Shown one piece after another: positions 9,046 through 58,346 of a stretch of 64,000 nt of DNA. The notes under the pieces were generated by a model. The model did no database searches, had not been told where the DNA came from, and saw only the letters and a list, made by a program, of their open reading frames with translations. Position numbers and translations under genes: made by a program. Source of the DNA: Bombyx mori (Eukaryota; Arthropoda; Insecta; Lepidoptera; Bombycidae); NCBI RefSeq assembly GCF_030269925.1, contig NC_085128.1, forward strand, positions 9,488,501-9,552,500, written 5' to 3'. Numbering within the stretch: position 1 is the first letter of the stretch; each line of letters opens with the position of its first letter.

Positions 9046-12000
9046 ATGAAAGTTTATCCAGAGAATAAAGTAAAACATGGACGTAAAAGTAATAGAAAAA
9101 TTGAGAGAAACGAGGAGGTCAACGGCATATCACTGTTTGCTGCTAGTCTACGACATCAAACAACTGAATTCTTCAATAATTCAACACTACACGGGGTTAG
9201 ATATATCGCAGAAAAAGACAGACCGTTTTGTGAAAAGTACGTGGACGTATTAAATTAATTTACCGTTTTTTCTATAACTATTTTTTAGAAGTTGTTTCTG
9301 ATTGATTTTTTTGTAGGTTTATGTGGTTCAGTTTTACTGCCATAGGAGCAGTAACGACTTGTATTATTATCGTAAGCTTATGGGAAAAGTTTCAAACCAA
9401 TCCAACGATTACAGGTAAAACTTTGTTTTTGTCGTAGCTCAATAGTATTTAATAGACATAATAGACAAAAAGTGCATTAGGAAATGGTATTTTCAGGTCT
9501 CGATACGGATTTTCACAATTGGGATGTTCCTTTTCCAGCTGTGACAATATGTGATGCTAGTCCTGTCGATGATGAATTACTGCAAGAGTATATCGAAAGG
9601 TAAAATGCGTACACTGTTAGAAATAACCGATAGGAAATGTGTTTTTTTTTTTATTGCTTAGATGGGTGGACGAGCTCACAGCCCACCTGGTGTTAAGTGG
9701 TTACTGGAGCCCATAGACATCTACAACGTAAACGCGCCACCCACCTTGAGATAAAAGTTGTAAGGTCTCAAGTATAGTTACAACGGTTGCCCCACCCTTC
9801 AAACCGAAACGCATTACTGTTTCACGGCAAAAATAGGCGGGGTGGTGGTACCTACCCGTGCGGACTCACAAGAGGTCCCAACACCAGTAAGATTTTATGT
9901 GAGGTAAGTACGTATCGCAAAAGACGCGTATTTTGACTCGCGCTTTTATTTTGCAAATTTCCAGTGTTTGGGGCTCCGATCCTCCGGAACGAGCTGCCGA
10001 AATGCTGCAATGGCTGGCCACATTGAGCTATAGTTCTATAGCAGAACATGCCGCTGAATACTTAGCGGAGCCGGGACTTGTAGGCGAAAATGAAAACAAT
10101 GTGCCGGAACCCGCTAGAGATTCGAAAGAAGCCGTATTTAAAGTAAGTGAAGAAGAAACAAATGCGACTTAGTCTAGGTACTTGAACCATAAAGACGTCG
10201 CCTTTTGACCTTGACCACACTTATAGTTCCTACCTACATATTTAATGGATGTCTTCAGGTTGTGCGACATTGCGAAACATTATTCTACGACTGCGTGTGG
10301 AAAGGAGATTCCGAAGAGTGTTGCGATTTGCTCATACCTGTATTCACGGAAATGGGCTTTTGTTATGCTTTTAATTCAAGACACGCGGAGAAAATTTGGC
10401 CCTGGTAATGATTAAATGAAGTGATTTTATTTACGAACTAATTGAAGAGTATATTTTACCAATTTTAAGTCGTCGTAGCCTGAAGGATATTACGCCTACT
10501 GTACTTATAGGTACTGAGCGACGCAACTATGCCCGTGTTCAAATTCGCGGACCGGTATCTAAATGAAATGAAATACAAATATTCTTAACATATTATGTTC
10601 ACGAATGACTTCCACGATAAAGGAATAGCATTGCCTAATAAAAATCAGACGTATAAAACATATAATTTGCCTAATTACCTACTATACAATTAAAACATTC
10701 TCAAGAAGAATAGCGGCATTTAGGTTGAGATGTCTATGGGCTCTGGTGGTTACTTAAAACTGAGGGGGCCATGAGCTTGATCACCCATCTAAGCAATAAA
10801 CCTGTGTAGAATGAATATCATAATTCAAAAATGTTCACAGGCAGTCGCAAGCACAACAAGAACAGTTTATAGAGGCATTTATTCACGAAACTGACGCAAA
10901 ATGGTCATTTATGTTTAATTCGGACCGCAAAAATACGACGTTCGACGTACGTACAACACAAAATTACTTTCATGTTGTTTATTTTCGTCTATTGATTTCA
11001 TTTATTTTAGTCAGTAATTTATCTAACAGATCTATATACATTCGACTGAAGAAATGGCTGGTTTAGAACAAAGCGCTCAGCACTCATGGGACTATCGCGT
11101 CGAAAAGGTTTCATTTTCCGTCAAGCATACCTATACAACTGACGATGCTCGCCAATTGTCAATCCGTCAAAGGCGTTGCGTATTCGCTGATGAATTGCAC
11201 CTGGATACATCGAATATCTACACCTATTCAGCTTGCATGAGACAATGTCGTATGCGAAGAAGTCGTTCGTTTTGTAAATGCGTGCCTCATTTTTATCCAA
11301 CTATAAGTGAGTTTGGTAATAAGTTATAATCGTTCTTAGTGTAAAAAAAAACACTGTTAGTAGAGTCTTGTGAGGCCGCACATGTAGGTACACCCTGCCT
11401 GTATCTGTGATAAAGGAGTAATGCGTTCAGTTTGAAGGGTTGGGCAACCGTTACACTATAAAACTGAGATTTAGAACCCGTGTTTCAAGGTGGGTGGCGG
11501 CATTGGCATTGTTCACGCAAATGGGTTCCGACGACCACTTAACAGACCCATCTGAGCAATGAAATATAATCAAAAAGTGAATTAACTCGATTCTTAGCTT
11601 TTAAACTATCTAGGCAATTCGACAAGGTCACGACTCACCTCGTGTTATGTAGGTAGTTACCGGAGATCATATCGTAACGTGAATCTATCTAGGGTCAAGA
11701 GGTTGAAGCCTTCGTTAGTTTATAACTGCTTCATCTAAAGAAACCGGAATGCAGCTGTCACGCTGGTTCGCGTCAAAAATGGGTAGGACGATGGTGCCTA
11801 CCCGTGCAGACACAACCACGAGTAAGACTCGGGTTTCATTGCGTTTTGTTGCGCATAGAAAACAGAATCCTGTTCTTTCAGAGGGATACAAGCAATGTAC
11901 ATTGCGGGAGCTGGAATGCATAGCGAAACACGCAAGCGCTATTACAGATGTGACTAAATGCTCATGTGAGCTGGGCTGTTCCCACACCGTTTACGAAGTT

Positions 12001-13814: not shown

Positions 13815-16800
13815 CAGGTATATATGTATATACATATTATATATAGACGAAATTGATAAAATTTTACGTTATTACAAAATTTGATATGAACCTTTCGGAT
13901 AATTTGAAAATGATTTCTAAAATTAATTATTGTCGTGGTAATTTAATTTTGTGAGATTTTTAAAACTGAAGTATTCGGAACATGGTCAATAATACAATAC
14001 GCGAGATTAATTAATACTTTGACAGGTATTTTTAATTAACGATGAAAATACTATTATATATTAGATGACATTTTCTTCTTTGATTATTTAAATTGAAATA
14101 TTTAATTCTCTGGATCTTCTCAGCAGGTCGCGATTCCGACGCATTTCACCCTATGAACTGACTATAAACTAACTTCCGTCATATCAACCAACCAGGTCTA
14201 AATATTGTAGTATGTGGGTGTTTGTCGCAGTTTCACCTGCTTTTAAATTGGCGATAAATAATATGACTCTTATCGACATGGAATTACATGAATTAAGAAT
14301 AAAAATTCAATTATATTAATATTATTTTATTCGATTTCTCTTGGTCACACAACACATTCATCTAAATCTCGCGACAAGATTACATTGAACTGCATTATCG
14401 TAATAAAAGACGTAAAAATAGTCAACAAACATTCGAAAATTAAATGTTACAAAAAAAAAAAGGAAATAAACACGAAAATGCAACAATTTACTATGATTAC
14501 ATATTAATTTTTTTCAAATCATAATCTGTCAAAAAAAGTTTGGACCTCTTTCAAACAATTACACGTAATATGTAAATTGGTATCGACTAACAATCGAGTT
14601 ATTATTCCATTACGAAGTTTGACTCGTAAATTGCTCAACTAGATCATCAGAAACCAATAAATTAAACTAACTAGGACTTAATGCTTACATGATGTAATAT
14701 TTTTTTTTAATACATACATATTTTATCACCTTGTCGGGGTGTTCGTTCTAAACTTTACTTTCAGTTTTATTGACAACCGACCGAACGGTAGCAATTAATT
14801 TAACGTAATTAAACTATCAATCTTCTACAATATTCTACCTACATCATTCATTCGTTCTAATTTCAACTTTGGCTAAATAATACGTTCGTTAACTTCGACT
14901 CATAATTCGAATTGTTTTATGTGAAAAATCTACCCAGTTCATTAAAATATTAAAACTGTTGTATACACATTAATATTACGTTTATAATTGAATTATTGAC
15001 GGTACGTACTTTTCAGGTGTTAATAAATAAGGATTCGTTTAAATAGTATTTCGAAATTGTTTAAAGTACCAATTCCGCACATGGTTTAAATAGTGACGAG
15101 CGATTATGACGGAAAATCGATTTTAATGCAATCGTTTACAATCGAATAATATCGACGATTTATTGATTTGAAATGATTAAAAGGGACCATCGTATTATTA
15201 CGATCGATCCGCGAACAGTCGCTTAAGTGCTTATAGAATTTCATCTATTGAACGAATCTCTCTGAATAGCACTGTTTATTCGAAATTATTACATGCACAT
15301 TACCTTATGTTTGGCACTAAGATATTATTAATTACGAAAATAACGTAAATCACGCACAAGATGGTTTACCTGTTGTCCTAGGTGGGCGGTGGTGGGCGAA
15401 CAATAGCGATGCTACGCAGTGCGACTAATTTCAATAAAACACGTGATTTTTGTGTCACATGTTTCGACCTATTTTCACAAATGAACAAAGAGTTGTTACT
15501 ATCCTAATATCCCTGCTAAATCTTATTCAATCAGTAAAAATTCCCTATACTGTATATTTAATAAAAAATAATTTTATTAAGTATAAATCTATTGAAAAAT
15601 ATTCAATAGATTATTTTTCAAACATCGGTCAAACTGTATCGCTTCGGTTTGTCGCTCACGTAGGACAAGGCCTTACATTATATTAATTAAGTGTTGACAG
15701 GCAAGAATAAATTTTAATGTAAATTAGTAGTAGTGAACGTTTTATGTAAATTTTAATAATAAAAATTTATTAAAATAAATTGAGGTATCTTTTTTAATTC
15801 GCCATATTCGAAATAAAACAGAAGAAAGCGTCAGTGAAAAGTTTGCAAAGATTTAGAAGACACGGTTAGTATGATGTAATGATTTTACAAAGTAAATGAT
15901 TCTCAGATTATTTAATTGGTCAATACAAATTAGCAGATTCAAGATTTACCTGCGTTATGGGTAACGCAAGCATACATACGTATGAGAAAGGAACAAAGAA
16001 ATACAACTCAGAACCTAAACAATTATCAATAATAAAGACACTAACTAACCATTAAGATTAATGTGATAATCCGAGAATCATTTAGGATATGTTTGGGAAA
16101 AATAAAAATATTGGCCGATGTAGCTAAAGTTAAATTGTTGGGAACCATTACGGTTTATAAAAACTTGTAAAATTTAATTGCATTAAGTACGAACCCTATG
16201 TAGTTTTTTTTCTTTAGTTTCATGTTTTTAACAATTCAGTACGGAGTACGATTCATATAAAAGTGTAAGTACAATTTATTAAGAAATGCAAATACATTGA
16301 TTGGGCCGTTTTTTTTAAATTCGACCTTCAATGTAGCTATCTTAAGTAACTATTAATCCACTGAATCGCTCGCCGGATCTTCTCAGTGGGTCGTGATTAT
16401 AATCCGGCGGTAGATTCTGCGTAGTACTACTCCTGCTAGGGGCAGTGTTAACAAATTCTCTAAAGTTGACCCCGTGAGCCAGCGAATGAGTAGAGAAAAA
16501 GAAAAAAGTAACTACTGCTTTATTAATTAAGCAATAGTATTGTAACTAAAGGGTAAGTAAGGTATCGAAATATCGACTTTCAATAAATTGGCATTATTTT
16601 TATCACAGCACGAAATAAATAAATTATTAAGCACCAAAACGTAAAAAAAATAAACGAAGAAATAAAAATAGAAACAACCGAAATACAGATTAAAAAATAA
16701 ATAGTACAACGAAACGTGTAAGTACTCATTTTAAGATAAAGTATACACAATACCGTCTAAGTATTTCACATGTACACACGACACCCATAGGTAACTCTAG

Positions 16801-27100: not shown

Positions 27101-30100
27101 CGGGTACCAATTTTTCTAATGAAATACGTACTCAACAAATGTTCACGATTGACTTCCACGGTGAAGGAATAACATCGTGTAATAAAAATTAAACCCGCAA
27201 AATTCTAATTTGCGTAATCACTGGTGGTAGGACCTCTTGTAAGTTCGCACGGGTAGGTACCACCGCCCTGCCTATTTCTGCCGTGAAGCAGTAATGCGTT
27301 TCGGTTCGAAGGGTGGGGTAGCCGTTGTAATTATACTGAGACCTTAGAACTTATATCTCGAGGTGGGTGACGCGTTTACGTTGTAGATGTCTATGGGCTC
27401 CAGTAACCACTTAACACCAGGTGGGCTGTGAGCTCGTCCACCAATCTAAGCAATAAAAAAAAAGAAAAAAAAAGAGGTCCTATCAGCAGTAATTACGCAA
27501 ATTATAATTTTGCGGGTATGATTTTTATTACACGATGTTATTCCTTCACCGCGGAAGTCAATCGTGAACATTTGTTAAGTACGTATTACATAAGAAAAAT
27601 TGGTACCCGCCTGCGGGATTCGAACACCCGTGCATCGCTAGTTATAGAGAATGCCCCGGACGTCTTATCCTTTAGGCCACTACGACTTCTTCCTATTACA
27701 CCCTTATCGCAGCGAGTTTCGAAAGAGCGTACAATTAATTCCCAGGCAACTCTCCCCGCTCTATCAACTCATATACTTATCCCTTATGTTCCATCATCGC
27801 TCTACGTAAATTAGAAAACTTTGGTCGTACAATTTCGATTAAGCAACTTGAAGAACTACCGCTAATACTATACTTACCTCATACGGAATTTCCATTGTGT
27901 AAGGGTCATAATTGTCAAGATTCTGTGTGCTCTCCGTTGGCGATACGGGTTTAACTATAGACGGTGTTAGGTTGTCATACCGCGTGTTCTCTGGGCCGGG
28001 CTCCTCCAGTACCTGTTCAGATGATTACCAATTCAACGAAAAATCTGACGAATCACTCACAAAAAGGCCTATGTAAATACGTTCAGTTAACTTATCTGAT
28101 AATTCTGTTGACGTGTTAGCCTTATCAATACGTGATTTTACTATAATATAATAATATTATTTTACTATATATATAACGGTCGAGTTTCAGGGACACGACC
28201 TTCAGTAATGAAGAAAGCGACGAAGAAGAAGAAGTATCAATTTGAAATCATTTTGCATTTTTAGTTTCGTGTGCGTTAATTGACCTTTTTATGCTATAAA
28301 ATAGAAATGGAAGGGAAATGCTATATAGTTATTACTCGTCAGATGTAGAATTGGTATCAACTGGTTGGTCAAAGTGTTCCCTCCGTACACATCATTAATA
28401 TTGTGAGTCCTTTTTGCAACATAGCTACCGGGCAGGAGTTCGTATTTCATAGTTACCGGTATTCTTATCATGTTCATATTGATGAAAAAGATAAAAATGT
28501 AGTGAAAGCAACAAATTAATCAATAATTAAATGACTACATTTGAAAATAGAGTTCCTTGATTTTCAAATAAAATTCATTTGAATTTAGAATTTATTGCCA
28601 GCCATACATCAATTACGTTTCAAATGGCCAGTATCGTAAAATGGCAACTTCATCGAAAAATATCTATTATTTATCTGTTTCGTTTTTATGTTAACGTTTA
28701 TGCAGAACCTTTTGTCCGTTGTCTATTAAAACTTTATGTTATTATTGTTATCGTAAACGTGGCCTTGCATGTTTTAAGCATTAAACATGAAATAGATAGT
28801 TACTCAATAGCTTGACCGGTCTAAGGCTAGGTTGCACAACTTATTTAAGAGCATTCAATGTAAAATATAAAAACCTTATTTCATAACACCTCAAAAGAAT
28901 ATTGTGTATAAACGTAGCAATGAGCAAGTTGTCAAAGTTCCCCAAAAATGACTAAACGTATTTAACATTCTCACAAATACAGTATTGCAGATATTCTTGT
29001 GGAAAATCGTTCGTCTTGTATTATGATTAACGATAAAGAAACCATTGAATTTATGTAGGTAGATCTAATTATTTTAGGGAATCAATTTGTTTAAAGTCTT
29101 ACAGACGACAAATTTGTTAGGTTTCGATTGAACATCCCCCTTTTTTTTCTTTTTTTTTTCCTACCTAAGCTGATAGCCTTAGGGGCTATTTCAGCGTAAC
29201 CGTGGCTAGTAGGTGAGCTCACGGGGCTCAAACCTGATGACGTTGCTAACACGAACCCTAGCAAGAGCCGTGCTTCGCAGAATCTACCACCGGATCGGAA
29301 ACGCGACCCACTGAGAAGATCCGGCGAGAAACTCAGTGGGCTGTGTCTGAGATTTAATTTACTCGTCGAGCCCTTCGTCGCAAGCGACGGGTTCGACGAG
29401 AACGGTGACCGGTGCTTGAAGTACCTAAAAGCACCGTTAGTGGATCGGGAGGATCCGAGATGACGTGTTTTGGGCGACGTCGACTGCTTTCCATTCTGTC
29501 CGCAGGATCGGGAATGGAACATCCCCATCACTACAGTTTTTCTATAAGGTTTCACGAAAGGCGTGACTAAATAATGAAGACAGAAAAAACTGAAATCTAT
29601 GTTGAATATGAGGAAATTACTCATGTATTGCTTAGAAAGTTCAGCCACTTTGACGTTATAATAACCATATTTTATTCTATGTTATGGTTATACGACTAAG
29701 TTGAGAACGCTATGAGATATGAACAGAATGGTGAGTAAATTGTTTTGCAATGCTATTTATGTAGGTAAATAAGCACATGGATAGTCTCTTGCAAGGCGTT
29801 CTTGAAGTCCACATATTTCTAAGCGGTCGACTATGGAAAATTTATGTTTGAATATATAAAGTTAAATATATCCGCATCTGAACCGGTCAGAATATGTAGA
29901 AATCTAATTAGAATTTTAAACTGTTTTATTAATAGACGATTGCAGATTTGTTACGTACCCATCGTGTAAACTCAAACATTTTCAAATCAAGCGGATCTCC
30001 TTTAAGCTCGCCTTGGATGCTGGTCAAGGAATGACACGAAGCCAGGGCCTGCAGTAGAGGACTCGTAGCCGGCAGCCCCGTCACATTCACCACTTGTTTC

Positions 30101-43500: not shown

Positions 43501-46500
43501 TAGCGATTGAGAAGATTGGTAGTTTCTTAGGGAATTGAGGCTGGTAGGTTTTAAAATGATAACTGAGAAACAGCTATAACTGGACAGTAAATATATCGAA
43601 TCGTATTTTAAAAAGAAATAATTGACTCGATTCGGCTTTAGGTCTGTTACATTTCTGTAGACTAGCGGTTTAAAATTAACGCGTCCGTCACGATACAAGA
43701 TCATATCGACCCATGCAGTAGTGAGTTTTCTTATTTTCACTCATAACTAAACGTAAAAACCCATTTAGGGTACACACGAAAGTGCTTTCCAGTAAAGATA
43801 GCGATGGATTTAAAACAGTTTTTCCTCGTGTTCACGTACAGATGCCCTCAATGAAGATACGCGATCACGTACCTAAATGGTGTAGACGTGACTTCGAACG
43901 ACACCTATTCGTAATTTTATGGAAGCGTTTCGCTTAGACTTCATGATCATGAATACGTTTATGATACCGAGAGAAAAACTCAAAGAGCATATTTTAAATG
44001 CATTCTAGGCTTAGTGTTGTAAAAAGAACAAAAATATCAGCGAATTACCTACCTAAAAAAAGTATATTGTTTCATTATAAATAGACGAGTTAAATCGTAA
44101 ATGCATCCGTTTGTTGGTAGATAAGAATCATTGATCCAATGAAGGGGATGCAAGCTGTTCCAAAATATCGATATTTTTGTATCGATAAATTATTAGTTGA
44201 AAAATAAAAATAAAAATACGCATAATAACATGATGATGATCCCAACGAAGTAAAGTATTACAATTCACATTTTCGAGAATCTTAGACAAGATTAAAAAAC
44301 CTCTATAGGTAGTCTACCAAGAAGTTTTATATAGATTATTAAAATTAGAATTATGTTATTATAAAAATTTCTATTATATTTACTTTTACAAATAAATAAT
44401 AACGTTCCTTGATTCTAGTTTGTTTTATTATAGGTAGAAACAATACGAAGAATAGAACCTACTTTTAACCACGTACGATTGGCTACATCTAGTTGTAACC
44501 AGCATAAAAAAGACTATACCTAGTTTTAACCAAATGAAATCGGCTACACCTAATATTAGCCGTGAACAAATCTGTTATACCTAGGTTTAAACGCCGAAGT
44601 GCGGCTACACCTAATTTTAGCCGGCTAGAACTAGGTGTAGTCGCACTTCGGGTACAGGGCGTTACATATATATTTTTTTTGTAATAAAATCCATTGTATC
44701 TAGGAATCAATGACGTGAAAAAATCGATGGCCTGTTAAATTATTTTCTAGGTAAATGTAATGAGTGGACATCAATTCCTCCATCCGATTTTGCCGTGCGA
44801 GTTCCTAGACTCGCCAGAATTCGAGTCGAGTCGAGCCACTATCGATGAAAAATTCAAGGTGAGTTCCGTTTAGGTATGAGTTGTTCAAGTTTTCATTGGT
44901 CTATATGTTAGTTAATTAACATTTTCCTAATTTTTTTTTATTGTATTTAAGAAGCAAATCTTAGTTGAATATTATTATAATAAAATATAAAATATCTTAT
45001 TATCCATGAAAATAAAATGTATACCTTCATTTAAAAAAAAAGTTCCTTTTGAGTTTTAATGGAGTTTTAAAGGAGTTCGATATAATCGAGCGATGAAATA
45101 ATAAAATTCTGTAATTGAAAAAGTGCAAAGAACAATGAGGGCTATTGTCAGGACCCATTTAAAAAAAAAAGATTTATACCTTTACACATACATCGACTCC
45201 AATCTGAGATTTTTCTAGTTTTATTTTTATTTTTTATTTTTTTATTGCTTAGATGTGTGAACGAGCTCACAGCCCACCTGGTCTAAGTGGTTACCGGAGC
45301 CCATATACATCTACAACGTATATGCGCCGCTCACCTTGAGATAATAAGTTCTAAGGTCTCAGTATAGTTACAACGGCTACCCCACCCTTCAGACGGACTC
45401 ACAAGAGATCCTATCACCACTAATTACGCAAATTATAATTTTGCGGGTTTGATTTTTATTACACGATGTTGTTTCTTCACCGTGGAAGTAAACCGTGAAC
45501 ATTTGTTAAGTATGTATTTTATTAGAAAAAATTGTACCCGCCTGCGGGATTCGAACACCAGTGCATGGCGAGATACGAATGCACCGGACGTCTTATCCTT
45601 TAGGCCACGACGACTTCTAGTGCTCAGGGTACCGGAAACACACGTATGAGATGACCGATACGGATCGAATCACCTTTCTTATTACAATGCAAAGGCTGCG
45701 ATAAACTTATCAGTACAAAAGCGATTCAAAAAAAAGTAGCTTTTAACTTCTGGTTTTCCTGATCTCAGTATAAATGGCTGAGGTTCAAGCACAAAGGTGG
45801 GTTAATTCCATTACAACGTTGTTCAATACCCTAATAATTATAACAGGTTTTGTATTTTTGTAAACAATCTCTTTATTCTTAGAGGTAGGTACCTTTTTTT
45901 TTTTTTTTTTTTTTCGGGTAGAGGGCCGAACCTCCTACGAGGTCCCCGCGCAAAAGGGGCGCGCGGGGTATGTGAGACTCAACGATCTGCATGGTGTTGT
46001 GAGCAGACCGCGGGCCCAAGGATTTTAGAGCCCACCCACTAAACGACTCCTCTGCACTCTTACACCCGACGTCCGATCCCCTCCGAGGTCAGAACCCGGA
46101 TGAGGTAGGGGGGCTACCGCGGTCAACACTACAACCAGACGGCGCGGCTCACCCCAAGGACGCCCAGCCGACGGAGCCTTCGAGGCGAATCGAAGGCTCT
46201 AAAACGTCAGCCGTCTCGGTACGGCAGCCCGTCGGGCCGCCCAGACGGTGCCGCTGGTGTCCCGGAATACCCCGCTGGACCAGAACCAGCCTGCCGGGTC
46301 GGGACGCGATACACCGTCGACCGGTCGCTCTATTCACTCCACGGCAGCGCGCTAGAGTGCTGGTAGCGCGCCGCGCGGCCTCACCCCCTCAGGTCGCCCC
46401 TTGACCTTCACCGGGGGGAGGCCGCCACCTACAGGGGCCGGGACGTACGGGCGTATTCCCGCCTCCGGCCCCCGGCTCGACGGCGACGGATCGGTGCGGA

Positions 46501-48085
46501 AAGGGAAGAGCTCTCCCTCTCTCGCTCCGCCGCCTCCTTCTGCGATATGGTGGACTCGCAGAAGTCGAGCATCGCCTTCCAGGACGCGTCGCTGCCGAGC
46601 ATCGTAGCCACGACGCGCGGCAGCGAGAGGTCCTCTCCAATGACCGCGACGAGGGCGGCGCGTTGCTCGTCGAATCCAGAGCAACGCGCCAGCGTGTGTT
46701 CCGCTGTGTCTTCCTCGTCGCGGTCCGCGCAGTGGTGGCACTGCGCCGTCGGTTCCCTTCCGGCTATCTTAAAGAGGTACCGGCCAAAACACCCATGGCC
46801 GGTCAACATCTGCGTCAGCCGGAAGGTGAGGCATCCGCGGTCGCGGCCCACCCAGTCCGCGAGGACCGGACGGACCGCCTCGACGGTACGGAGGCCGGCC
46901 GACGGGTCCGCCAAGCGGCGAGACCACGCCTCCAGCACGGACCGCCGAGATTGGAGCCTCCGCGCTCGAACTACTCCTTCGCCGGGGCGCCCTTCCCCCC
47001 TAGAGCGGAGGTCGCTACGCCACCGGTAATCGGCAGCGAGCGCCTCCGCCTCCAGGTCCCAGGGTGGCGCCCCGGCGAGCAAGCACGCCGCCTCGAAGGA
47101 GACGGTGCGGTATCCTCGGATCGCCCTGACCGCGATCGCGCGCTGCGGACGTCGCAGCGCGGCGATGTTCTGGCGGGTCAGGGCGTGGCACCATACGGGC
47201 GCGCCGTATAGTGCCATCGACCGCACCACCCCCATGTAGAGGCGGCGCGCCACCTGATCGGGACCCCCGACGTTTGGAAGGAGCCGGCTCAAAGAGCCGG
47301 CCGTTGCCATCAGCCGAGGGCCCAACTTCTCAAAGTGAGCGCGGAAGTTCCACCGACCGTCCAGTTCGAGGCCGAGGTACCGAAGACCGGTCACCCCGAC
47401 CCCGACGCGGACGCCTCCGATCACGAGGTGGGCACCCACAGGCGGCGCTCGTCCCGGCCCGTGAAAGAGCAGGGCCTGGGTTTTGTCGAGCGCCACCTCG
47501 AGCCCCAACCGTCGGATCCTGGTGACGACGTGTGCCACGCCTGCGCACGCCAGACGGGCAGACTCCCGGTAGTCCCTCCCCGGAGCTACGACCAACGTGT
47601 CGTCAGCGTAACAAATTACGCTGAGCCCGGGGAGGGGTCCCCGAATGACGCCCCGCAGGACCCAGTCGTAGCCGATGTTCCACAGCAGGGGGCCCAGGAC
47701 GGACCCCTGCGGAACACCACGCTCGACGGGGAAGCGGTACATCGCCCCACCGTGTCCGATGCACTGGATCGACCTGCCCTCGAGGTAGGAGCCGATCAGT
47801 CGGCGGAGGTATGCGGGGACGCCGTGATACTCCAGCGCCCCCGCGATCACCGACCAGGGCAGGGTGTTGAAGGCGTTCCTTACATCTAAGGATAACGCCA
47901 TCGCCACCCCGCCCCGGGATACGGCTTCATCGGAGAGGGCCCGCACGCGCAGAATTGCGTCGATAGTCGAGCGGCCCTCTCTGAAGCCGTATTGCTCCGC
48001 CGAAAGATCGGGACCCGTCTCGGTCAGGTGCCGGACGATGCGGGCCGCGACGATCCTCTCGAGCATCTTGCCCGAGAGGTAGGTA

Positions 48086-48121
<36 letters not shown>

Positions 48122-49365
48122 CGGGTAGAGGGCCGAACCTCCTACGAGGTCCCCGCGCAAAAGGGGCGCGCGGGGTATGTGAGACTCAACGATCTGCATG
48201 GTGTTGTGAGCAGACCGCGGGCCCAAGGATTTTAGGACCCACCCACTAAACGACTCCCCTGCACTCTTACACCCGACGTCCGATCCCCTCCGAGGTCAGA
48301 ACCCGGATGAGGTAGGGGGGCTACCGCGGTCAACACTACAACCAGACGGCGCGGCTCACCCCAAGGACGCCCAGCCGACGGAGCCTTCGAGGCGAATCGA
48401 AGGCTCTGAAACGTCGGCCGTCTCGGTACGGCAGCCCGTCGGGCCGCCCAGACGGTGCCGCTGGTGTCCCGGAATACCCCGCTGGACCAGAACCAGCCTG
48501 CCGGGTCGGGACGCGATACACCGTCGACCGGTCGCTCTAATCACTCCACGGCAGCGCGCTAGAGTGCTGGTAGCGCGCCGCGCGGCCTCACCCCCTCAGG
48601 TCGCCCCTTGACCTTCACCGGGGGGAGGCCGCCACCTACAGGGGCCGGGACGTACGGGCGTATTCCCGCCTCCGGCCCCCGGCTCGACGGCGACGGATCG
48701 GTGCGGAAAGGGAAGAGCTCTCCCTCTCTCGCTCCGCCGCCTCCTTCTGCGAGATGGTGGACTCGCAGAAGTCGAGCATCGCCTTCCAGGACGCGTCGCT
48801 GCCGAGCATCGTAGCCACGACGCGCGGCAGCGAGAGGTCCTCTCCAATGACCGCGACGAGGGCGGCGCGTTGCTCGTCGAATCCAGAGCAACGCGCCAAT
48901 GTATGTTCCGCTGTGTCTTCCTCGTCGCGGTCCGCGCAGTGGTGGCACTGCGCCGTCGGTTCCCTTCCGGCTATTTTGAAAAGGTACCGGCCAAAACAAC
49001 CATGGCCGGTCAACATTTGCGTCAGCCGGAAGGTGAGGCATCCGCGGTCGCGGCCCACCCAGTCCGCGAGAACCGGGCGGACCGCCTCGACGGTACGGAG
49101 GCCGGCCGACGGGTCCGCCAAGCGGCGAGACCACGCCTCCAGCACGGACCGCCGAGATTGGAGCCTCCGCGCTCGAACTACTCCTTCGCCGGGGCGCCCT
49201 TCCCCCCTAGAGCGAAGCTCGCTACGCCACCGGTAATCGGCAGCGAGCGCCTCCGCCTCCAGGTCCCAGGGTGGCGCCCCGGCGAGCAAGCACGCCGCCT
49301 CGAAGGAGACAGTGCGGTATCCTCGGATCGCCCTGACCGCGAGTCAGGGCGGAGGTAGGTACCTA

Positions 49366-49410
<45 letters not shown>

Positions 49411-52400
49411 ATTGAAAGTTTACTGGTGGCCCGAAGGCCTTTCCAGTTTCACCAGGACAGGTGGGCGAGCAAAGGCTCAGCCAAGAGGGGTGGGATTTGC
49501 TAACAACTGCCCGAGCGCCTCCGAAGGAGACCTAACAACTCAAGAGCAATTGTTTCGCGAATGAATCTACTACCGGATCGGAATCGCGACCCGCTGAGAA
49601 GATCCGGCGAGAAACTCAGCGGGCTGATGCATGGGTTAGGTTGCACGTCGACCTCTTTGTCGAGTTCGACGAGTACGGTTACCGGGGTCCCTAAGCCTGC
49701 CCCTAGTATTAGAGCTGAAGGCATCTAATGCAAAGGTTATTGGATCTGATGGATCCGTAAGGACGTGTCTAGGGCGTCGACGGTGACTGGCTCCTGCATG
49801 ATCAGGATTCGGGGAGTAGTCAGCGGCGGCAACGATAAGGCGATTATCATGACGCATAGCCTTATCGAAGTATCGTTCCGACGCTGACTTCATGTATTTC
49901 CGAATTGATTCGAGGCCCAGGTCGTCGTGTAGGTCAACGTTCCTCACGAACCACGGAGCCCCGACAGCTAACCTGCAAAAGCGGGATTGTAGGGATTGGA
50001 GGGTGTCTATGTGTGTGCGGGCCGCGTGAGCGAACACCACACTCGCGTAAGTCATGACGGGCCTTATGCAAGTTTTGTAAAGTGTCACCTTGTTCCGAAG
50101 GGACATTTTACTCCGCTTACAGATCATGGGGTAGAGTCTACCGAGAATAAACGCGGCACGGTCACGGACTGATTTTATATGCGGGCGGAATGTCATCGAT
50201 GCATCCAGGGTAACGCCCAGGTACTTGACCTTCCTGGCCCAGGGTATGGGTTGTCTAAAGAGAGTAATCGGGGGTGTGAGATTCCTCCTCCTAATCCGGG
50301 AGGAAATCCGTGTGGAGCTTCCCCTCTGAAATAGCACCGCAGTACTTTTCGCTGGGTTGATGTCTATGCGCCATTTTCGGAACCACTGTCCTAGGGCTAG
50401 GGCTGCGCTCTGAAGCTTCTTCGCGATTAGGGACTTATTTCTACTAGAATAGTAAACAGTCGTGTCGTCGGCGAATAAAGCTAAATGGGTCGGCGGCGAC
50501 CGGGGAATATCGTTGACGAATAAGCTAAATAGGAGGGGTGAGAGGACAGAGCCTTGCGGGACTCCAGCTGTGAGAGGTCGTGGGGAGGAGCGGGTTCCCT
50601 CGACTCGATATCGAAAAGAGCGGTTCGACAAGAAGTCCCGTATGATGAGCACGAGACTATCCGGCACGCCCATGTTGAATAGTTTGAAAATCAAACCATT
50701 GTGCCAGACTTTGTCGAACGCTTTTGCGACGTCGAAGAAGAGAGCTCCCGTGTATAACGGTTTTGGTCGATTAAGCCCCACAAGAATGTGCTCCGTGAGG
50801 CGGTGCACCTGTTGAACGCATGAGTGATTTGTACGGAATCCGAATTGTTCATCGATAAGAATGCCCTTGGATGAGACGAAGTCTCTGAGGCGTTTGTAGA
50901 GCAGACGCTCATACAGTTTGCCTAGAGACATGAGGAGGCTAATCGGGCGGTAGCTCGTCGGATGATTTTTTGGTTTACCGGGTTTATGTATGCCGATAAC
51001 GTCCGCTTCTTTCCACACCGCGGGAAAGATACAGTTCGCCATAGCGGCATTGAAAATAGATGCCAACATCACGATGAGTTGGACGGGTAGAAGTTTAATA
51101 ACGCGGTTGGATATACCGTCGGAACCGGGAGCCTTGCGAGGACGTAGGTCTTTGATCAAGTCTTTAACTTCCATCGGGGTGACGGGTGGTAACGCATCAG
51201 AGGGTGGCAAGGAGGCTCTGCGTTCTACCTCACTGTCTACTAATTCTACATGAACAGGGTCCACGGATTGAGTGCTGGGCGTGCACTGGGTTTGCAATGT
51301 ATCGGCCAGCAGCTCTGCTTTTTCGTCATCATCGAACGCCGCGAGTCGGCCTGAGGGGCCTACGAGGGGGGGCATAGTTACTACCGTATCCGATTTGAGA
51401 GTACGAGCTAAGCGGTAGTAAGACCTTTGAGAGGGCGCGAGTCCTTCTAAGAACCAGACCATCTGGCATCTCGGACTTCGGTGATGCGAGACTTTACGTC
51501 GCGTTGTAGGGCACGCATTCGAATACGATTTTCCGCGGTAGGATACCTATCGTACGCACGGATCGAGGCGTTCTTAGCTCTAAGGAGTTCCCTAATATCG
51601 TCAGGCAATTTGAAGCGGTGAAGGAAATCCTCCGCTACAACTTGCTTCGATGACCTATCTAATGTCGAGGTGATGTGTGACGTTACGATGTCTATGGCTT
51701 CAGCGGTATCCTGAGGAGACGGGATAGAGTCCGGACTAAACGGAAGCGATGGTGGATCAGATTCAGCCAGGCTGATGCCCAGCGTGTGCCAATCCACCAC
51801 AGTCCTCGTGACGGGAACGGAATCGGGAGCGCGACCGAGCTTCATAACGACGGGACGGTGGTCTGAATCTAACTCTGAAACTACTTCGATCGAGTGTAAG
51901 CGCAGAGTTACGTTTTTTAATAACGCTATGTCGAGTATATCCGGGCGATGCGCGATATTTAGCGGGTAGTGAGTCGGGGTTAGCGGAGCGACGATATCGA
52001 AGGCGAGATCATCGACTAACGCGTCAAGCCGCCTGCCATTCGGGGTTGTGGTGTGTGAGTTCCACCTGATGTGTTTACAATTTAGGTCGCCCGCAAGAAT
52101 GACAGAGCTCCCCATACCGAGCAGCGCCTCGATATCACTGCTTAGAACGATCTTATCCGGTGGAAGATAAACGGACGCGATAACGATCGGCGCGTGTCCC
52201 GTCAGTGAGATTCGGCACACTGATGCTTCGATATTAGCGAGCGCGGGAGGATCGAGCGGGACGCAATGCAGGGCTCTTCTATAGTAAATGACGGTACCAC
52301 CACCACGGGCAGAGAGCCTGTCGTTCCTGACCATGTTATAGTTCGCGATTTTAGGGTCACGGCGCGCGGGCTTAAGTAGGGTCTCCTGCACTAAAAAGAT

Positions 52401-55400
52401 ATCAATTTGGTGGTCACGCAAAAAGTCAGAAACCTGATCACGTTGATTTGCGAGACCGTAAGCGTTAAAAAATCCTATCGTTACGGATAGGGGCTTTATT
52501 CTACTTATATACGCCATTGATTACCGGCGGAGTGAGGGGAGGACGTACGTATTTAATGACGCGTATACGTCGGCGTATTCCTGCACAACGGCGATAAAGT
52601 GTTGTGCAGTGGAGGCAGCGCGAATGGCGTCGCCCAAAGCGTTAACGCGCTCAAAGTTGATCGACTGAAAGAAGTCGATCGCTAAAGCGAGATTGTCGGA
52701 CGCGGTCGGAGGGCAAGTCGCGGGAGAGGGACGAGTCGCGGGGGCGGGACGAATCGCGGAGGAGGGAGTTGTAGCCGTGTTCGTGTACGGCAGCGGTTTT
52801 GCCCAGGCCGAGACACTGGGCACCGCCGCCGGAACGAACGCTGGCTTAGCCTGCGACGCAGAGGGTGCCGAGGCTTTGATGTCTGGGCCGGAAGCTCGGA
52901 GGCGGTTTTGGCGGGCGACGCGGCGATTTATTTTAGGGGCTCGGGGGCAACCACGGTAATTCGCGGGGTGACCCTGTGTTCGACACAGGACGCAGCTAGG
53001 CGGTTCCGTCGCGGTTTTTTGGTCGCGAGCGCAGAGGGCCGTGGCGTGATCGCCCAAACACTTAACACATCGGGGGCGCGCGTGACAGTTACGGGAAGAG
53101 TGCCCGTACAATTGACAGTTATGGCACTGGCTAGGAGTGCCTTTTTTATGGGGGGCTTCGACAGCGATACCAGAGAGCCTACAGACGGTCTGCGTGTTAA
53201 AGATTTTCTTACCCTCGGGGGTAGGCTGGAGAGCGACTAGAACCATATTATATGGCTCCCTACCGCGACCGGTGTGCATACGGTGCACAGAATTCACTGG
53301 TAGGCCTTGTTCTAACAGGTCGGCTTTTACGAGCTCTACATCTAACTCTTTAGGGATTCCGCGTATTACAACGCGGAGTTCGCGCTCCTCCTGGAGCGTA
53401 TACGTATGGAAACTTATACGCTCCTTACGGAGGTAAGAAGAGAGGGCCCTATGGTCGTCGGGTGTTTGAACCTTAATTTGAATGCCGTTCGCGAGGTTAC
53501 GGGCATTCGTGAAATTTATATTTTTGGCCTTAAGGGCCAGGCAAACTCGATCCCAAGCTGCCTTCTCCTGAAGGATAACCGGGGGAGGGGTCTGGGTTTT
53601 ATTTTGTGCCACCGGACGCGGCGACGGAGTGGCACGGGCTGGGGGCGCAACGGGAGTCTGAGGGCGGGGGCGCGACGCGTTCACGGCTTTGCTAATTTTA
53701 GCGGCCGCGGGAGCTCGAGACTCCGCGGCACGCTTCTTACCCTTCTGTACCAGGGTGAATCCATCCGTCGATGAGGCGGGGGCGAGGTCGACCTCCATGT
53801 CCGAGTCAGAGTCGGAGCACGAGGAGGCGGGTGCAGGCGACCTACGAGCAAGTGTAGGTGTTTTAGAGGGCGCGACGGAGGCCGCGGATGATCGCTCAGC
53901 TGAAACGATGGTCACGGCGGACGACGCAGCAGCTTTTCTCGCCAGTATAGGCGACACGGGAGCGGCAGGCACGACAGAGGCTGCGGTGCTCAATGCAGAA
54001 GCTCTGCACGCAGGTACAGGCGACGCAGGAGCAGCGAGCGCGGCGGAGTCCTCGAGAGGGCTCGCAGTGTGATTGGCCTTGAAGGCCAAAAACTCCGAGG
54101 CGAGCTGTGGGTGGCGAAGTCGGAGGAATTCCGCGAATACAGCGTCCATGATCGCTGAGTACCCAGGTGGGGCGGCCCCGGGTCTTGAAAACACTCGCCT
54201 TGCGGCGAGGCCCCAACTTCTCGGACCTGAGCGGTTCTATTGAACACAGGTGGCAATGCGGCGCGATTACTACAGGACAAAGAAAAAGCACAACAAAACA
54301 GAAATTACGAAAAGAAACAAAACAAATAAATACTTGCAGGAAACCACTTTGTCGGCAGATGTACCACGAACACAGAAACAACAAAAGGAAACAAAACAAA
54401 TAAAAACTTCCAGAAAGAGCACTTAGTCGGCAGATGTACCACAAACACAGGCCGCGCGAACAATGGCCGGGCTAACAAAAGCCGGGCGAACAAAGACCGG
54501 GCGATCGAGTCGACGATGAGCACGTCCGCACGTGACGGGTGCCTCTATCGGAATGACCTAAGTTCTCTGGTATCGACCCCAGTATGCGAAACCCCTGGCC
54601 TATTTAAACAAATGTTAGACGAGGATGTAAAGGTTGAGCTAATATCAATATATCAGGTGGATAAAGTTGCAAACACCCCCAAGTTTGTTTACGAACAATA
54701 AAAAAGTATCAAGGAACTATCGTTTCTCTTTTTGATATCAGAAGAGTTTGTTACTTAATTAAATGTAAATAATACACATATTATCTATATTTTAATTTAT
54801 CTCGTTTTTTGTTTGTTTGTTTAAACGCTTCGCTAAAGGCTAAACTTTTGCTGACCTTTTTTGAGCTTTTAAAACTTATAATTGGCACGCAAAACAAAGT
54901 TATTCTCGGAATACTCATAATGTTTTTACCAAATTCATCGTTTTCAAATTCACTCAAAGAAAAACAGTTCATTCAAAAATATTTAGCTGTACGCCTGTAA
55001 TACAAGTAATCCTGTCATTATCGATATTTATAAATGACGGATCTATCAAAATCTTAAACTCGTTTGCCTAAATTCTGCTATAAATATAACAATTATGGAT
55101 AAATCTAAAAATATAACTAAAACATAAAATCGTAACGGGGTCGATTATTAATTCGACCAAACATTTACTCTAAGATTCCCAAAATAAAACCCTTAATTGA
55201 GTCGACTATTATCAAAGCCGGCAATGTGACTTTTGGACAATTATTGGTAAATCAGAAAAACGAATTATTGACTTTGTATTCCATTGGCAGTCACAAAACT
55301 CTTCTGATCGACATCTTAGATAAATAACAGGTTAAGTATTAACCTTTATTTAATGCAGGTTTTGAACCGTATTCTTTGAAGGAGACGATTATATTCAAAT

Positions 55401-58346
55401 CAATCTGAATTGACACATCAATAACATTTTTTTGTCCAAATGCACAGATTGCCACCTTTGATAATAGACGACTCAATTAATTGATACTCAATAACCGAAT
55501 GCTATTTAATTTATATGAATAGAATCTATCAATTTCTCAAATTTAGTAAATTCAATAGTATATTTCATTTGAATTAATAAAAACTAAAAGCTAGTTATTT
55601 TTTTATGTCTGTTCAACAACGAAAATCATTTTCACGAGTTTTATCGCACACGTAAAACTGTTTTAATGATTTGCCGCATAAAATTGACTACTTCAACTAT
55701 TGTGCCGGCTCTCAAATTCCGCAGACAAGTACCAATATCTCTAATGAAATACATCTGAACTTAAATTTTAATGATATTCACGAATACACAATAATGGTAT
55801 AACATCGTGTAATAAAAATAAAATCGCAAAATATAATTTTTATAACTAAGTAATATGAGCCGAGACGGTGTTCGCGTTGTGATATCTATGGGCTCCGGGA
55901 ACCAATTAACATTGGTTGAGATGTAGACGCGTTCGCCCGTACATGTAAAAAAAATATTAAAGAACATCGCCCATAGGCACTAGATATTCTGAATCCCACC
56001 GCACACTTTGAGGAGGAACTCTCTTTTGCGTGGAACAAGGGCTACCCAATAACATTAATCAACTTAGGTTCAGCTACACGGGAAAGATGCGCGCTCTTGA
56101 ACTTCGCCAGAAAAAATTGTGGGCTATCGTTAATCTTAATATATATAATTCTTCTGTCCGTGTGTGTGTTAGTGAACTCCTTCTAAATGGTTGGACCGAT
56201 TTTGATAAAAGAATTCGAGAATGGCTCAGATTTACAATTCGGTATTGTAATAACAATTTTATTCAAAACGATTCACATTAACTTATTCAAAAAAGTTTGT
56301 AAACGTCTGTCGTTAGTACTATTTAAATATATTAATAACTCAATACTTTGACATACGTATCCCACAGAACTGAAACTTAAATTGATATAAATGCAAGAAC
56401 GATGCAATAAATTCAACTATCGAACTAAAATTGAAGTGCCCATAACATTGTATCCACGAAAAGAAATAATTTCAAGTCTTGTTCCGCCCGTTTTCGCAAG
56501 GAGGTTTAGACTTCATCGATATTTAACCCAGTTTCTTCCATTTATAGCTACTTTAACTGCTACACAGCCATGTTAGACAACAATTAGGTCAACGGAATGG
56601 GGTTGGTAATGCCAAAGAGCTTTGTGATGAACGGCTTCGGAAAACTCAATGTAATTTACTTAAATGCAAAAATTTGCGTTTTTTAAGTCAGATATTAATT
56701 TTTCGCGACATTTGTTCGTATTACTTTTGTTCCTAATATCGAATTTTCACAAAGAATTCAGAATTGAATTAATTTAAAGTGGGAGGATTAGAACATATTG
56801 TGAGCCCGCAATTAGTATTATTTAGTTCAGATGTGATGGTAGGACAGCCATTTAACAACACACTTGGAACTTCGCCCCAGGCGGCTATTATATTGTTGTG
56901 TCTATGGACTAAACACCAGTTGGGACGTGAGTTGTTTCTTCAATCTAGTGCAATAAAAAAAGAAAAAAAAGGTTTGAAAATTAATTAGGGAACACAAGTA
57001 TGAGAATCAATCATTCTGCTACCGTGTCCCGCTTCCTCTGTAGTCCGCGGTCATATCATTAGAACTAAACTGTGCAGCCGTAAGGTGTTATGATAAACTC
57101 ACTCGCCTATATACGTAGCGCCGTCGGTCTATTCCGGGCGCAAACCACACGGATTGGATTATTTAATTGTCAACAAAATATATAAATGTTAATAGTAACT
57201 GGTGGTAGAACCTTTTGTGAGTGCGCACGGGTAGGTACCACCGCTCTGCTTATTTCTGCCGTGAAGCAGTAATGCGTTTCGGTTTGAAGAGTGGGGCAGC
57301 CGTTGAAACCATACTGAGACCTTAGAATTCATATCTCGAGGTGGGTGACGGCATTTACGTTGTAGATGTCTATGGGCTCCAGTAACCACTTAACACCAGG
57401 TGGGCTGTGAGCTAGTCCACCAATGTAAGCAGTAAAAATAATAAAAATAAAGGCTTTCATTTGTTCTCCAGGTATCTATAGTAGCGGCTTCATCCTGCCG
57501 CTACGTGTACTGGCAAAGGAGTTCCCTCGAATATCTATTCGTGAAAGAGCCGTACTTAGCCTGCGTTGTTACCACGCTCATAGCACGGGACATCACCACG
57601 AAACTGTATGCTATGAACAATAAGATTGTGACGGAAAGAGGATCACATCTAGACATTAGGCTGCCGAGCATCTCTCACGCTTTGGCCCGAAGTCCGAGGA
57701 AACTGCGTTCTGTCAGCAACCCGCCGCCACCGACTACTGTACAGCCCGTTCCGCCAGAGAAAAGACCAAGTAAACAAATAATCATACATGTTACAGAAAA
57801 ACACGAGTACTTGCCAAAATAAAAAATGCCTAAATTTAATGTTTACCACAAGTTTTTTTTTTTTTTATTGCTTAGATGGGTGGACGAGCTCAAAGCCCAC
57901 CTGGTGTTAAGTGGTTACTGGAGCCCATAGACATCTACAACGTAAATGCGCCACCCACCTTGAGATATAAGTTCTAAGGTCTCAGTATAGTTACAATGGC
58001 TGCCTTACCCTTCAAACCGAAACGCATAACTGCTTCACGGCAGAAATAGGCAGGGTGGTAGTACCTACCCGCGCGGACTCACAAGAGGTCCTACCACCAG
58101 TAAAATATTTATTCTCGTCAACCAGGTTGCTGGACCCGGGAGGTCGAGGCTCCAGAAACCTTGAAACGAAACTGCGTTCAAGGAATAACGTATACCGATG
58201 GTGATGAAGAGCTGATGCCGCTTGCTGCTCATGAAGCGAAGGTGGCTTCTTTAGACGACCTGTCTGTAGCGGACAGCTGCCCCGACACCTCGTCTAAGTA
58301 CCATAGCTGCGAAGCTGTTGAAACAGATGATGAATTAAGACATTAA
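37545..58346 (+). CDS. bves: Popeye-domain membrane protein (Bves/POPDC)
   Basis: Exons 37545-37671, 38252-38310, 38388-38472, 40808-40989, 43362-43493, 44751-44858, 57472-57769, 58126-58346; 403 residues, all phases agree. An N-terminal region with a NGS glycosylation site is followed by three membrane spans (about 63-140). The cytoplasmic Popeye domain then begins (FEPFKVSRLQFKRM, LTKTDRLGLLLSGK). The cAMP-binding motif reads FLDSPEF (DSPEF at 215-219) where most family members have Trp last. Popeye proteins bind cAMP and act in muscle and cell-contact membrane trafficking and excitability. The C-tail is Ser/Pro-rich, then acidic. Intron 44859-57471 is 12.6 kb and filled with retrotransposons. 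Reading through the donor at 57770 gives a second end stopping at 57822. Confidence 0.9.
38635..39005 (+). mobile_element. Jockey-clade LINE 3' end fragment
   Basis: Forward tail including GTCATCTCGGATCCTCCCGA and CCACTGAGTTTCTCGCCGGA and ending in an A-rich tract. Confidence 0.78.
39390..39720. mobile_element. LINE fragments, mixed orientation
   Basis: 39390-39560 looks like a reversed LINE piece (TTCTTCTTCTCCTTCGTCGC). 39605-39700 encodes a forward scrap reading LLKYFGHVARRNPDNLEKL, the C-terminal signature of a LINE polymerase ORF. No intact frame. Confidence 0.45.
40300..40556 (+). mobile_element. LINE 3' end fragment
   Basis: The translation contains SRLKWYEHVMWRD, like the end of a LINE polymerase ORF; the tail ends AATAAAGAAGAAGAAG. 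Clade not determined. Confidence 0.5.
41211..42569. mobile_element. 1359-bp non-autonomous DNA transposon, 6-bp TSD
   Basis: Inverted ends of about 27 bases start CCACGGAATAGATAAATAAG at 41211 and end in the complement at 42569. TTGTAA is duplicated at 41205-41210 and 42570-42575, and the uninterrupted Bm1 sequence confirms the empty site. Inside are a perfect 26-base hairpin (41379-41437) and a GT-rich stretch (42345-42480), but no convincing ORF. A 6-bp duplication excludes Tc1/mariner, piggyBac and hAT; superfamily unknown. Confidence 0.8.
41379..41437. repeat. perfect 26-bp inverted repeat
   Basis: Arms 41379-41404 and 41412-41437, exact complements, with a 7-base loop AAGTATA. Lies within the 1359-bp element. 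Confidence 0.9.
44459..44660. repeat. degenerate ~31-bp tandem array ending in a hairpin
   Basis: A motif like CTACACCTAATTTTAGCC recurs six times about 29-32 bases apart (about 44459, 44482, 44514, 44543, 44575, 44605). The last copy is followed by its reverse complement, so CGAAGTGCGGCTACACCTA pairs with TAGGTGTAGTCGCACTTCG around a GCCGGC centre. In a bves intron. Confidence 0.7.
45237..45618 (-). mobile_element. Bm1 SINE with internal deletion
   Basis: Reverse copy from ATTGCTTAGATGTGTGAACG to the tRNA-like head; about 70 bases are missing after ACCCCACCCTTCA. Confidence 0.87.
45882..45893. repeat. target-site repeat 1, GAGGTAGGTACC
   Basis: First of three identical 12-bp copies bounding the R1-clade insertions; the others are at 48076-48087 and 49352-49363. 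Confidence 0.9.
45894..48075 (-). mobile_element. R1-clade LINE, 5' truncated, copy 1
   Basis: Reverse element: poly(A) tail (45894-45914 as T), GC-rich 3' UTR, and an open frame 46429-48066 for the C-terminal two-thirds of ORF2. That frame encodes reverse transcriptase with GVPQGSVLGP and CYADDTLVV, thumb region, and a C-terminal CHHC zinc motif (CHHCADRDEEDTAEHTLARC). Endonuclease and ORF1 are missing. Flanked by GAGGTAGGTACC on both sides. Far more GC-rich than the host introns. Confidence 0.9.
46429..48066 (-). pseudogene. truncated R1-clade ORF2 (reverse transcriptase)
   Basis: 545 codons open to the 5' truncation point, so recent. Reverse transcriptase palm motifs and the R1-type end rich in Arg after SQKEAAERERE are visible. 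Cannot encode a working element because the endonuclease half is absent. Confidence 0.88.
48088..49351 (-). mobile_element. R1-clade LINE, 5' truncated, copy 2
   Basis: Same element as copy 1 with only scattered single-base differences, truncated further (inside the polymerase thumb region; open frame 48636-49289). Poly(T) at 48088-48121. Its 5' junction carries a 9-base templated inversion (49343-49351). Confidence 0.9.
49636..52517 (-). pseudogene. Jockey ORF2 (endonuclease and reverse transcriptase), one frameshift
   Basis: Two overlapping frames. 52517-51447 encodes the apurinic-type endonuclease (QETLLK, AGDLNCKHIRWNS, SDHRPV). 51462-49636 encodes the connector and reverse transcriptase (GVPQGSVLSPLLF, FADDTTVYY). 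The frame changes at about 51447-51462 by what looks like one lost base, so this copy cannot make a fused polyprotein. Confidence 0.85.
52521..54194 (-). CDS. Jockey ORF1 (Gag-like nucleic-acid-binding protein)
   Basis: 557 residues. Ala/Pro/Ser-rich N-terminal half, then an RNA-recognition-like region, then three Cys-His zinc knuckles: CHNCQLYGHSSRNCH, CVKCLGDHATALC and CVLCRTQGHPANYRGC, the last with the ANYRGCP signature of Jockey-type Gag. Binds element RNA. Stop at 52521, three bases before the ORF2 ATG. Confidence 0.85.
   Translation of the reverse strand: MFSRPGAAPPGYSAIMDAVFAEFLRLRHPQLASEFLAFKANHTASPLEDSAALAAPASPVPACRASALSTAASVVPAAPVSPILARKAAASSAVTIVSAERSSAASVAPSKTPTLARRSPAPASSCSDSDSDMEVDLAPASSTDGFTLVQKGKKRAAESRAPAAAKISKAVNASRPRPQTPVAPPARATPSPRPVAQNKTQTPPPVILQEKAAWDRVCLALKAKNINFTNARNLANGIQIKVQTPDDHRALSSYLRKERISFHTYTLQEERELRVVIRGIPKELDVELVKADLLEQGLPVNSVHRMHTGRGREPYNMVLVALQPTPEGKKIFNTQTVCRLSGIAVEAPHKKGTPSQCHNCQLYGHSSRNCHARPRCVKCLGDHATALCARDQKTATEPPSCVLCRTQGHPANYRGCPRAPKINRRVARQNRLRASGPDIKASAPSASQAKPAFVPAAVPSVSAWAKPLPYTNTATTPSSAIRPAPATRPSPATCPPTASDNLALAIDFFQSINFERVNALGDAIRAASTAQHFIAVVQEYADVYASLNTYVLPSLRR
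54195..54510 (-). repeat. Jockey 5' UTR with tandem repeats
   Basis: Two copies of a ~76-base unit (54312 and 54388 on), each ending GTCGGCAGATGTACCAC, then three ~16-base units at about 54455-54505 (GGCCGGGC, AGCCGGGC, GACCGGGC). Likely internal promoter region. Confidence 0.6.
55718..55955 (+). mobile_element. ancient Bm1 SINE
   Basis: Diverged forward copy: AAGTACCAATATCTCTAATG, AACATCGTGTAATAAAAATA, GATATCTATGGGCTCCGGGA. Confidence 0.65.
56120..56285 (+). mobile_element. Helitron-like 5' fragment
   Basis: AATATATATAATTCTTCTGT followed by GAACTCCTTCTAAATGGTTGG, a common start of lepidopteran Helitron derivatives; 3' end not found. Confidence 0.45.
57197..57450 (+). mobile_element. Bm1 SINE (5' truncated)
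   Basis: Forward copy ending just 20 bases before bves exon 7; the exon's pyrimidine tract lies immediately after the A-rich tail. Confidence 0.87.
57770..57822 (+). CDS. bves: alternative bves C-terminus (intron retained)
   Basis: If the 57770 donor is not used, exon 7 runs on for 17 codons (SKQIIIHVTEKHEYLPK with the split Ser) to TAA at 57820-57822, overlapping an AATAAA word. The spliced form instead adds 73 residues from 58126. Which is used is unknown; the intron between is only 356 bases and mostly Bm1. Confidence 0.45.
57851..58103 (-). mobile_element. Bm1 SINE (5' truncated)
   Basis: Reverse copy making up most of the 356-base intron between the last two bves exons. Confidence 0.9.

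Follow-up and report, generated by a model that had tools for sequence, protein, structure and literature searches.

Two 5′-truncated copies of one R1-like long interspersed nuclear element (LINE), here called E1 and E2, are inserted in the same orientation at exactly the same base of Bombyx mori contig NC_085128.1 (NCBI RefSeq assembly GCF_030269925.1), and they are two separate retrotranspositions. The stretch analysed, hereafter the window, comprises 64,000 nucleotides (positions 9,488,501 to 9,552,500 of the forward strand). The sequence GAGGTAGGTACC is found in exact form at 45882, 48076 and 49352, three copies within the 64-kb window, where no further site was detected even when one mismatch was tolerated; by chance, 0.15 matches are expected, and three copies were obtained in 0 of 100 shuffles. 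As the first-pass annotation had noticed, each interval between these repeats holds one 5′-truncated copy of the same element, whose poly(A) (21 T in E1 and 34 T in E2, as read on the plus strand) lies directly against a copy of GAGGTAGGTACC. The locus thus directly records two independent cDNAs, one nick position and equal duplications. The features are the following:

45878..45881, no strand: native flank CTTA, left arm of CTTA-N12-TAAG
45882..45893, no strand: target-site duplication (TSD) copy 1, GAGGTAGGTACC, on the 3′ side of E1
45894..48075, minus strand: E1, 5′-truncated R1-like LINE (poly(T) at 45894-45914 on the plus strand, 21 T)
46429..48066, minus strand: E1 open reading frame (ORF), 545 amino acids, reverse transcriptase (Pfam RVT_1) and C-terminal part of ORF2
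48076..48087, no strand: TSD copy 2, at the E1/E2 boundary
48088..49351, minus strand: E2, shorter 5′-truncated copy (poly(T) at 48088-48121 on the plus strand, 34 T)
49329..49351, plus strand: fold-back at the E2 5′ end, consisting of CGCCCTGAC, the loop CGCGA and GTCAGGGCG
49352..49363, no strand: TSD copy 3, on the 5′ side of E2
49364..49367, no strand: native flank TAAG, right arm

The independence of the two insertions follows from the synonymous bias of their differences, their unlike truncation points and a fold-back that is private to E2. E1 and E2 are 98.4% identical over 1242 shared bp, with 20 substitutions, 6 of them in the 514 bp of the 3′ untranslated region. When the two proteins were compared codon by codon, the shared ORF showed 14 differences, of which 13 are synonymous and the remaining one is an Asp/Glu exchange, although ~69-74% of ORF changes would be protein-altering in the absence of constraint. 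The probability of at most one nonsynonymous change among 14 is 3.1e-7 to 2.6e-6 for transition weights of 1-8, and the E1/E2 differences therefore arose in functional source elements, prior to insertion. The E1 frame is uninterrupted over its 545 amino acids. At the 5′ end of E2, three additional differences from E1 were assigned to the fold-back: the similarity ends at 49342, the last base of the loop, and the nine bases that follow and reach the repeat (49343-49351) are added sequence and a perfect reverse complement of 49329-49337. This hairpin has a predicted stability of -11.4 kcal/mol, equalled in 0 of 200 shuffles, and looks like the end of a cDNA that copied itself prior to joining the target.

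Duplication of one insertion followed by divergence was rejected on the 13:1 synonymous ratio. In this reading, a single insertion would have been duplicated by unequal exchange via the 12-bp repeats and E2 shortened later by a deletion. Such an exchange predicts the three identical repeats and accommodates the 98.4% similarity, but 13 synonymous changes to one nonsynonymous change are not expected in dead copies, and the deletion would have to stop exactly at the repeat yet leave the 9-nt fold-back, which makes this course of events very improbable. The earlier claim that this is not one duplicated insertion accordingly stands, on a synonymous/nonsynonymous comparison that carries more weight than the unlike truncation points; the same bias, together with the three exact repeats, bears out the proposal of two separate insertions into one target that each duplicated the same 12 bp. 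It is also improbable, if somewhat less so, that the assembly joined in tandem two alleles carrying one insertion each at the same site: the false join would have to rest on just 12 bp, and two independent insertions at one base would be needed anyway. Least probable of all appears a single compound event, in which two RNAs were reverse transcribed successively at one nick by template jumping. E1 and E2 do share their orientation and first-strand nick, as such an event would have it, but template jumping would fuse element to element, whereas for a complete 12-bp target to stand between E1 and E2, target-primed reverse transcription has to cut the site in staggered fashion and fill it in twice.

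The undisturbed target can be read from the outer flanks. In the sense of the element, it was CTTA|GGTACCTACCTC|TAAG (vertical bars mark repeat edges or cuts). The third repeat (49352) is followed by the native TAAGTTC and a jockey-like LINE, without a poly(T) of the R1-like element. The T adjoining the repeat merges with the poly(T), so that the first-strand nick may lie one base further in, with a duplication of 12 or 13 bp; an extra T at the 5′ junction of E1 could be the thirteenth duplicated base.

We consider it probable that two R1-like LINE RNAs, whose two active source copies differed slightly, were integrated here successively by target-primed reverse transcription. E1 would have been inserted first, at the native CTTA|GGTACCTACCTC|TAAG, duplicating 12 (or 13) bp. 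Of the two resulting copies of the target, the one 5′ of E1 would retain the site of the first-strand nick (GTACC|TAAG on the bottom strand), a later ribonucleoprotein would nick the same base, and with the insertion of E2 the 12 bp would be duplicated again. The base would thus have been re-used because the first insertion had duplicated its target site. We infer the order E1 then E2, with which the poly(A) lengths of 21 and 34 weakly agree in that they fit an older E1. Less likely is the reverse order, in which E2 came first and E1 entered the TSD beside its poly(A), with a nick at GTACC|TTTT.

A precedent is described in a study of seven Drosophila species, in which tandem R1s carry a 14-bp TSD between the copies; in the authors' explanation, a later element entered the TSD that flanks an older R1 on its 5′ side (PMC2718515). 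The same authors find bottom-strand cutting by R1 to be rigid and top-strand cutting flexible. The likeness to the silkworm locus extends from the tandem at one site with a TSD between the copies (14 bp there and 12 here) to 5′-truncated copies and non-templated nucleotides at 5′ junctions, which Drosophila R1 shows as well (PMC2718515). Many, perhaps all, of the Drosophila tandems described there lie in ribosomal DNA (rDNA) at the normal R1 site (PMC2718515), whereas the flanks here (45619-45881 and 54566-57197) contain no repeated native target in a self-comparison of the window (E 1e-10), and no rRNA family was found in the window at the Rfam gathering score. The element here differs further from Drosophila R1 in having a long poly(A). 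R1 insertions outside 28S in Drosophila, where both junctions were recovered, retain a 4-9 bp match to the normal target close to the lower-strand nick and have TSDs of 3-14 bp (PMC2718515), another point of likeness. Against this background, the locus is a new example of an already known kind, tandem insertion via a TSD, and the same-base pair is probably a known side-effect of target-site duplication and not proof of a new targeting rule.

Some sequence preference is nevertheless implied. Under the assumption of round numbers for both copy number (1000) and genome size (460 Mb), two insertions at the same base are expected in ~5e-4 pairs per genome if there is no preference, and in ~0.5 pairs per genome if one position per thousand is acceptable; a moderate preference therefore suffices. 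The endonuclease probably has a moderate preference for such a site, with a CTAAG/CTTAG-like core, and not a dedicated 12-bp target. Several observations weigh against this account of preference and successive insertion. A single native site underlies the preference, and CTTA-N12-TAAG also occurs at 15672 and 36825 in the window, both empty: tblastn with the proteins of four relatives found no R1-like copy at either position, the matches being confined to E1, E2 and the jockey-like LINE. The sequence alone permits the reverse order, E2 then E1, and the jockey-like LINE sits within the same 19 bp, which could be a hot spot of another kind. For CTTA-Nn-TAAG with spacings of 10 to 15, the window holds 1, 0, 2, 1, 2 and 0 occurrences, respectively, and a spacing of 12 is therefore not special in it.

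The first-pass annotation had gone further and suggested a family that targets GAGGTAGGTACC; this suggestion was not upheld, as there is one native site and the TSD re-use described in PMC2718515 accounts for the same base once the site is duplicated. We judge it unlikely that this R1-clade family is target-specific, with an endonuclease that would recognise every occurrence of GGTACCTACCTC, alone or as part of a longer sequence, in the manner of R1 in 28S and of TRAS and SART in telomeres. Such specificity draws on the use of the identical base on both strands, twice, and on the placement of the nicks. The first-strand nick is at GTACC|TAAG, or one base on at CCT|AAG, and the second-strand nick is at CCTC|TAAG. 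Placement at the repeat edges puts both nicks at C|TAAG, with the bottom one matching the C-T cut that the TRAS1 endonuclease makes in the CCCTAA strand (PMC2868851); on the other strand, TTAGGG, the same source places the TRAS1 cut at T-A, from which the second nick here differs. If placed at CCT|AAG, the first nick matches the SART1Bm cut TT|AGG. The TRAS-like and the SART-like placements are mutually exclusive, and the sequence favours neither. The first nick is spanned by TTAGGT, found outside the inserts at 0.00028 per strand position of the window. SART1Bm joins its poly(A) to AGG (PMC7265360), and here the tail is likewise joined to (A)GG, at the sense-strand site TT(A)|GGT. SART1Bm needs at least three TTAGG repeats (PMC7265360), whereas one TTAGG is present here. 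From TRAS1Bm the locus also differs in that a telomeric array is absent and that E1 and E2 have both lost their own endonuclease region through 5′ truncation. Among six PDB rows (E ≤10) obtained with the Arctia relative P0058 as query, TRAS1 was the only R1-clade endonuclease.

The match to a telomeric site is post hoc, and the likeness to 28S is about equal to that to TTAGG: relative to what we take to be the 28S R1 site, the target matches at 8/11 positions, and outside the inserts such an 8/11 match has a frequency of 0.00099 per strand position, compared with 0.00079 for TTAGG. Together with the single native site, the absence of such an element from both further CTTA-N12-TAAG positions in the window, and a re-use for which the duplicated site already accounts, this argues against a dedicated target. 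The undisturbed site also resembles TTAGG/CCTAA, the target of telomere LINEs in the silkworm; this is suggestive, but a post hoc lead from one site, and the 28S likeness is likewise no more than a lead. Slightly more doubtful still than a dedicated target is a SART/TRAS-related Bombyx LINE family that would have abandoned the telomere and would recognise short, non-repetitive CTTA-N12-TAAG, cut C|TAAG on both strands and re-insert in tandem as a normal event.

The assignment to an R1-type LINE, also made earlier, agrees with reverse transcriptase relatives named R1 and with the tree. The protein searches gave 587, 317 and 472 hits, of which the best 120 each were considered and most rows are unnamed. 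The 120 best of the 587 hits include Bombyx and Papilio proteins named R1 by their sources, and two rows among the matches listed are named R1 [Bombyx mori] (P0037 and P0051); no row named SART1, TRAS1 or R1Bm occurs among the best 120 of 587, 317 and 472 hits. In the tree, in which the forks near E1 are well supported and most deeper forks unresolved, E1 groups with Bombyx mori A0A8R2QYD3 (P0005, a cluster of 14 sequences; 98.7% over 311 amino acids) and with the Bombyx protein R1 4 (P0037; 79% over 296 amino acids), in keeping with a Bombyx host. Four relatives are 50-59% identical to E1, compared with 27-30% to the jockey-like reverse transcriptase of the same window. By its reverse transcriptase, the element thus appears to belong to the R1 clade, and we call it R1-like. 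Target-primed reverse transcription with TSD and 5′ truncation, an R1-clade trait that is common to other LINE clades, is seen here as well. P0058, the relative from Arctia, aligns with 78% of E1 at 60% identity and carries an endonuclease whose best PDB match by sequence is TRAS1. E1 and E2 lie neither in (TTAGG)n at TT|AGG as SART does, there being one TTAGG and no array, nor at the 28S site of R1 proper.

Scans of contigs, plasmids and phages, in which records of the window's own genome were possibly left out, gave no relative: the 21-base pattern near the 3′ end of the element had 0 matches in viral contigs, the E1 protein had no relative in genome contigs (42 stretches) or viral contigs (2 stretches), alignment A1 had none in viral contigs (9 stretches) or genome contigs (35 stretches), and E1 DNA matched nothing in plasmids and phages. 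Neither the locus nor the family is reported in any title or abstract opening listed by the literature searches. Three R1-like ORF2 proteins are filed under Acinetobacter baumannii, Pseudomonas aeruginosa and Piscirickettsia salmonis (P0010, P0029 and P0179, respectively). P0029 is 73% identical to E1 over 349 positions with 4 gaps, including long stretches that are identical by eye, and insect contamination of the bacterial assemblies is therefore the probable origin of these entries. On the plus strand, Rfam mir-3389 matches inside E1 (47662-47730) and mir-2822 inside the jockey-like LINE (50060-50126); these microRNA families may be transposon sequence.

The jockey-like LINE lies 7 bp from the R1-like nick, in the same orientation as E1 and E2:

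49371..54555, minus strand: jockey-like LINE with ORF1 (PRE_C2HC), endonuclease and reverse transcriptase ORFs
49361..49370 and 54556-54565, no strand: TSD of the jockey-like LINE, ACCTAAGTTC, which has ACC in common with the R1-like target

Jointly, the R1-like and jockey-like duplications cover 19 bp of native DNA, into which three LINE insertions have gone. ORF2 of the jockey-like LINE is split into two frames at ~51450, and its 5′ end contains two tandem copies of ~80 bp that are 85% similar (54295-54375 and 54369-54450). Elsewhere in the window, self-comparison revealed a dispersed family, ~250 bp long and present many times in either orientation (9642-9898, 27220-27469, 57198-57452, 57856-58112 and others), one copy of which ends near 45391, to the left of the locus; the family is probably a short interspersed nuclear element or a miniature inverted-repeat transposable element.

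The locus cleanly documents, in nature, how two LINEs were independently inserted at a single base where no rRNA or telomere-repeat array is seen, and it comes with a synonymous-site test that tells re-insertion from duplication without the need for reads. If copies throughout the genome share the C|TAAG context, it would show how the specificity of R1-clade endonucleases drifts from telomere or rDNA to ordinary DNA.
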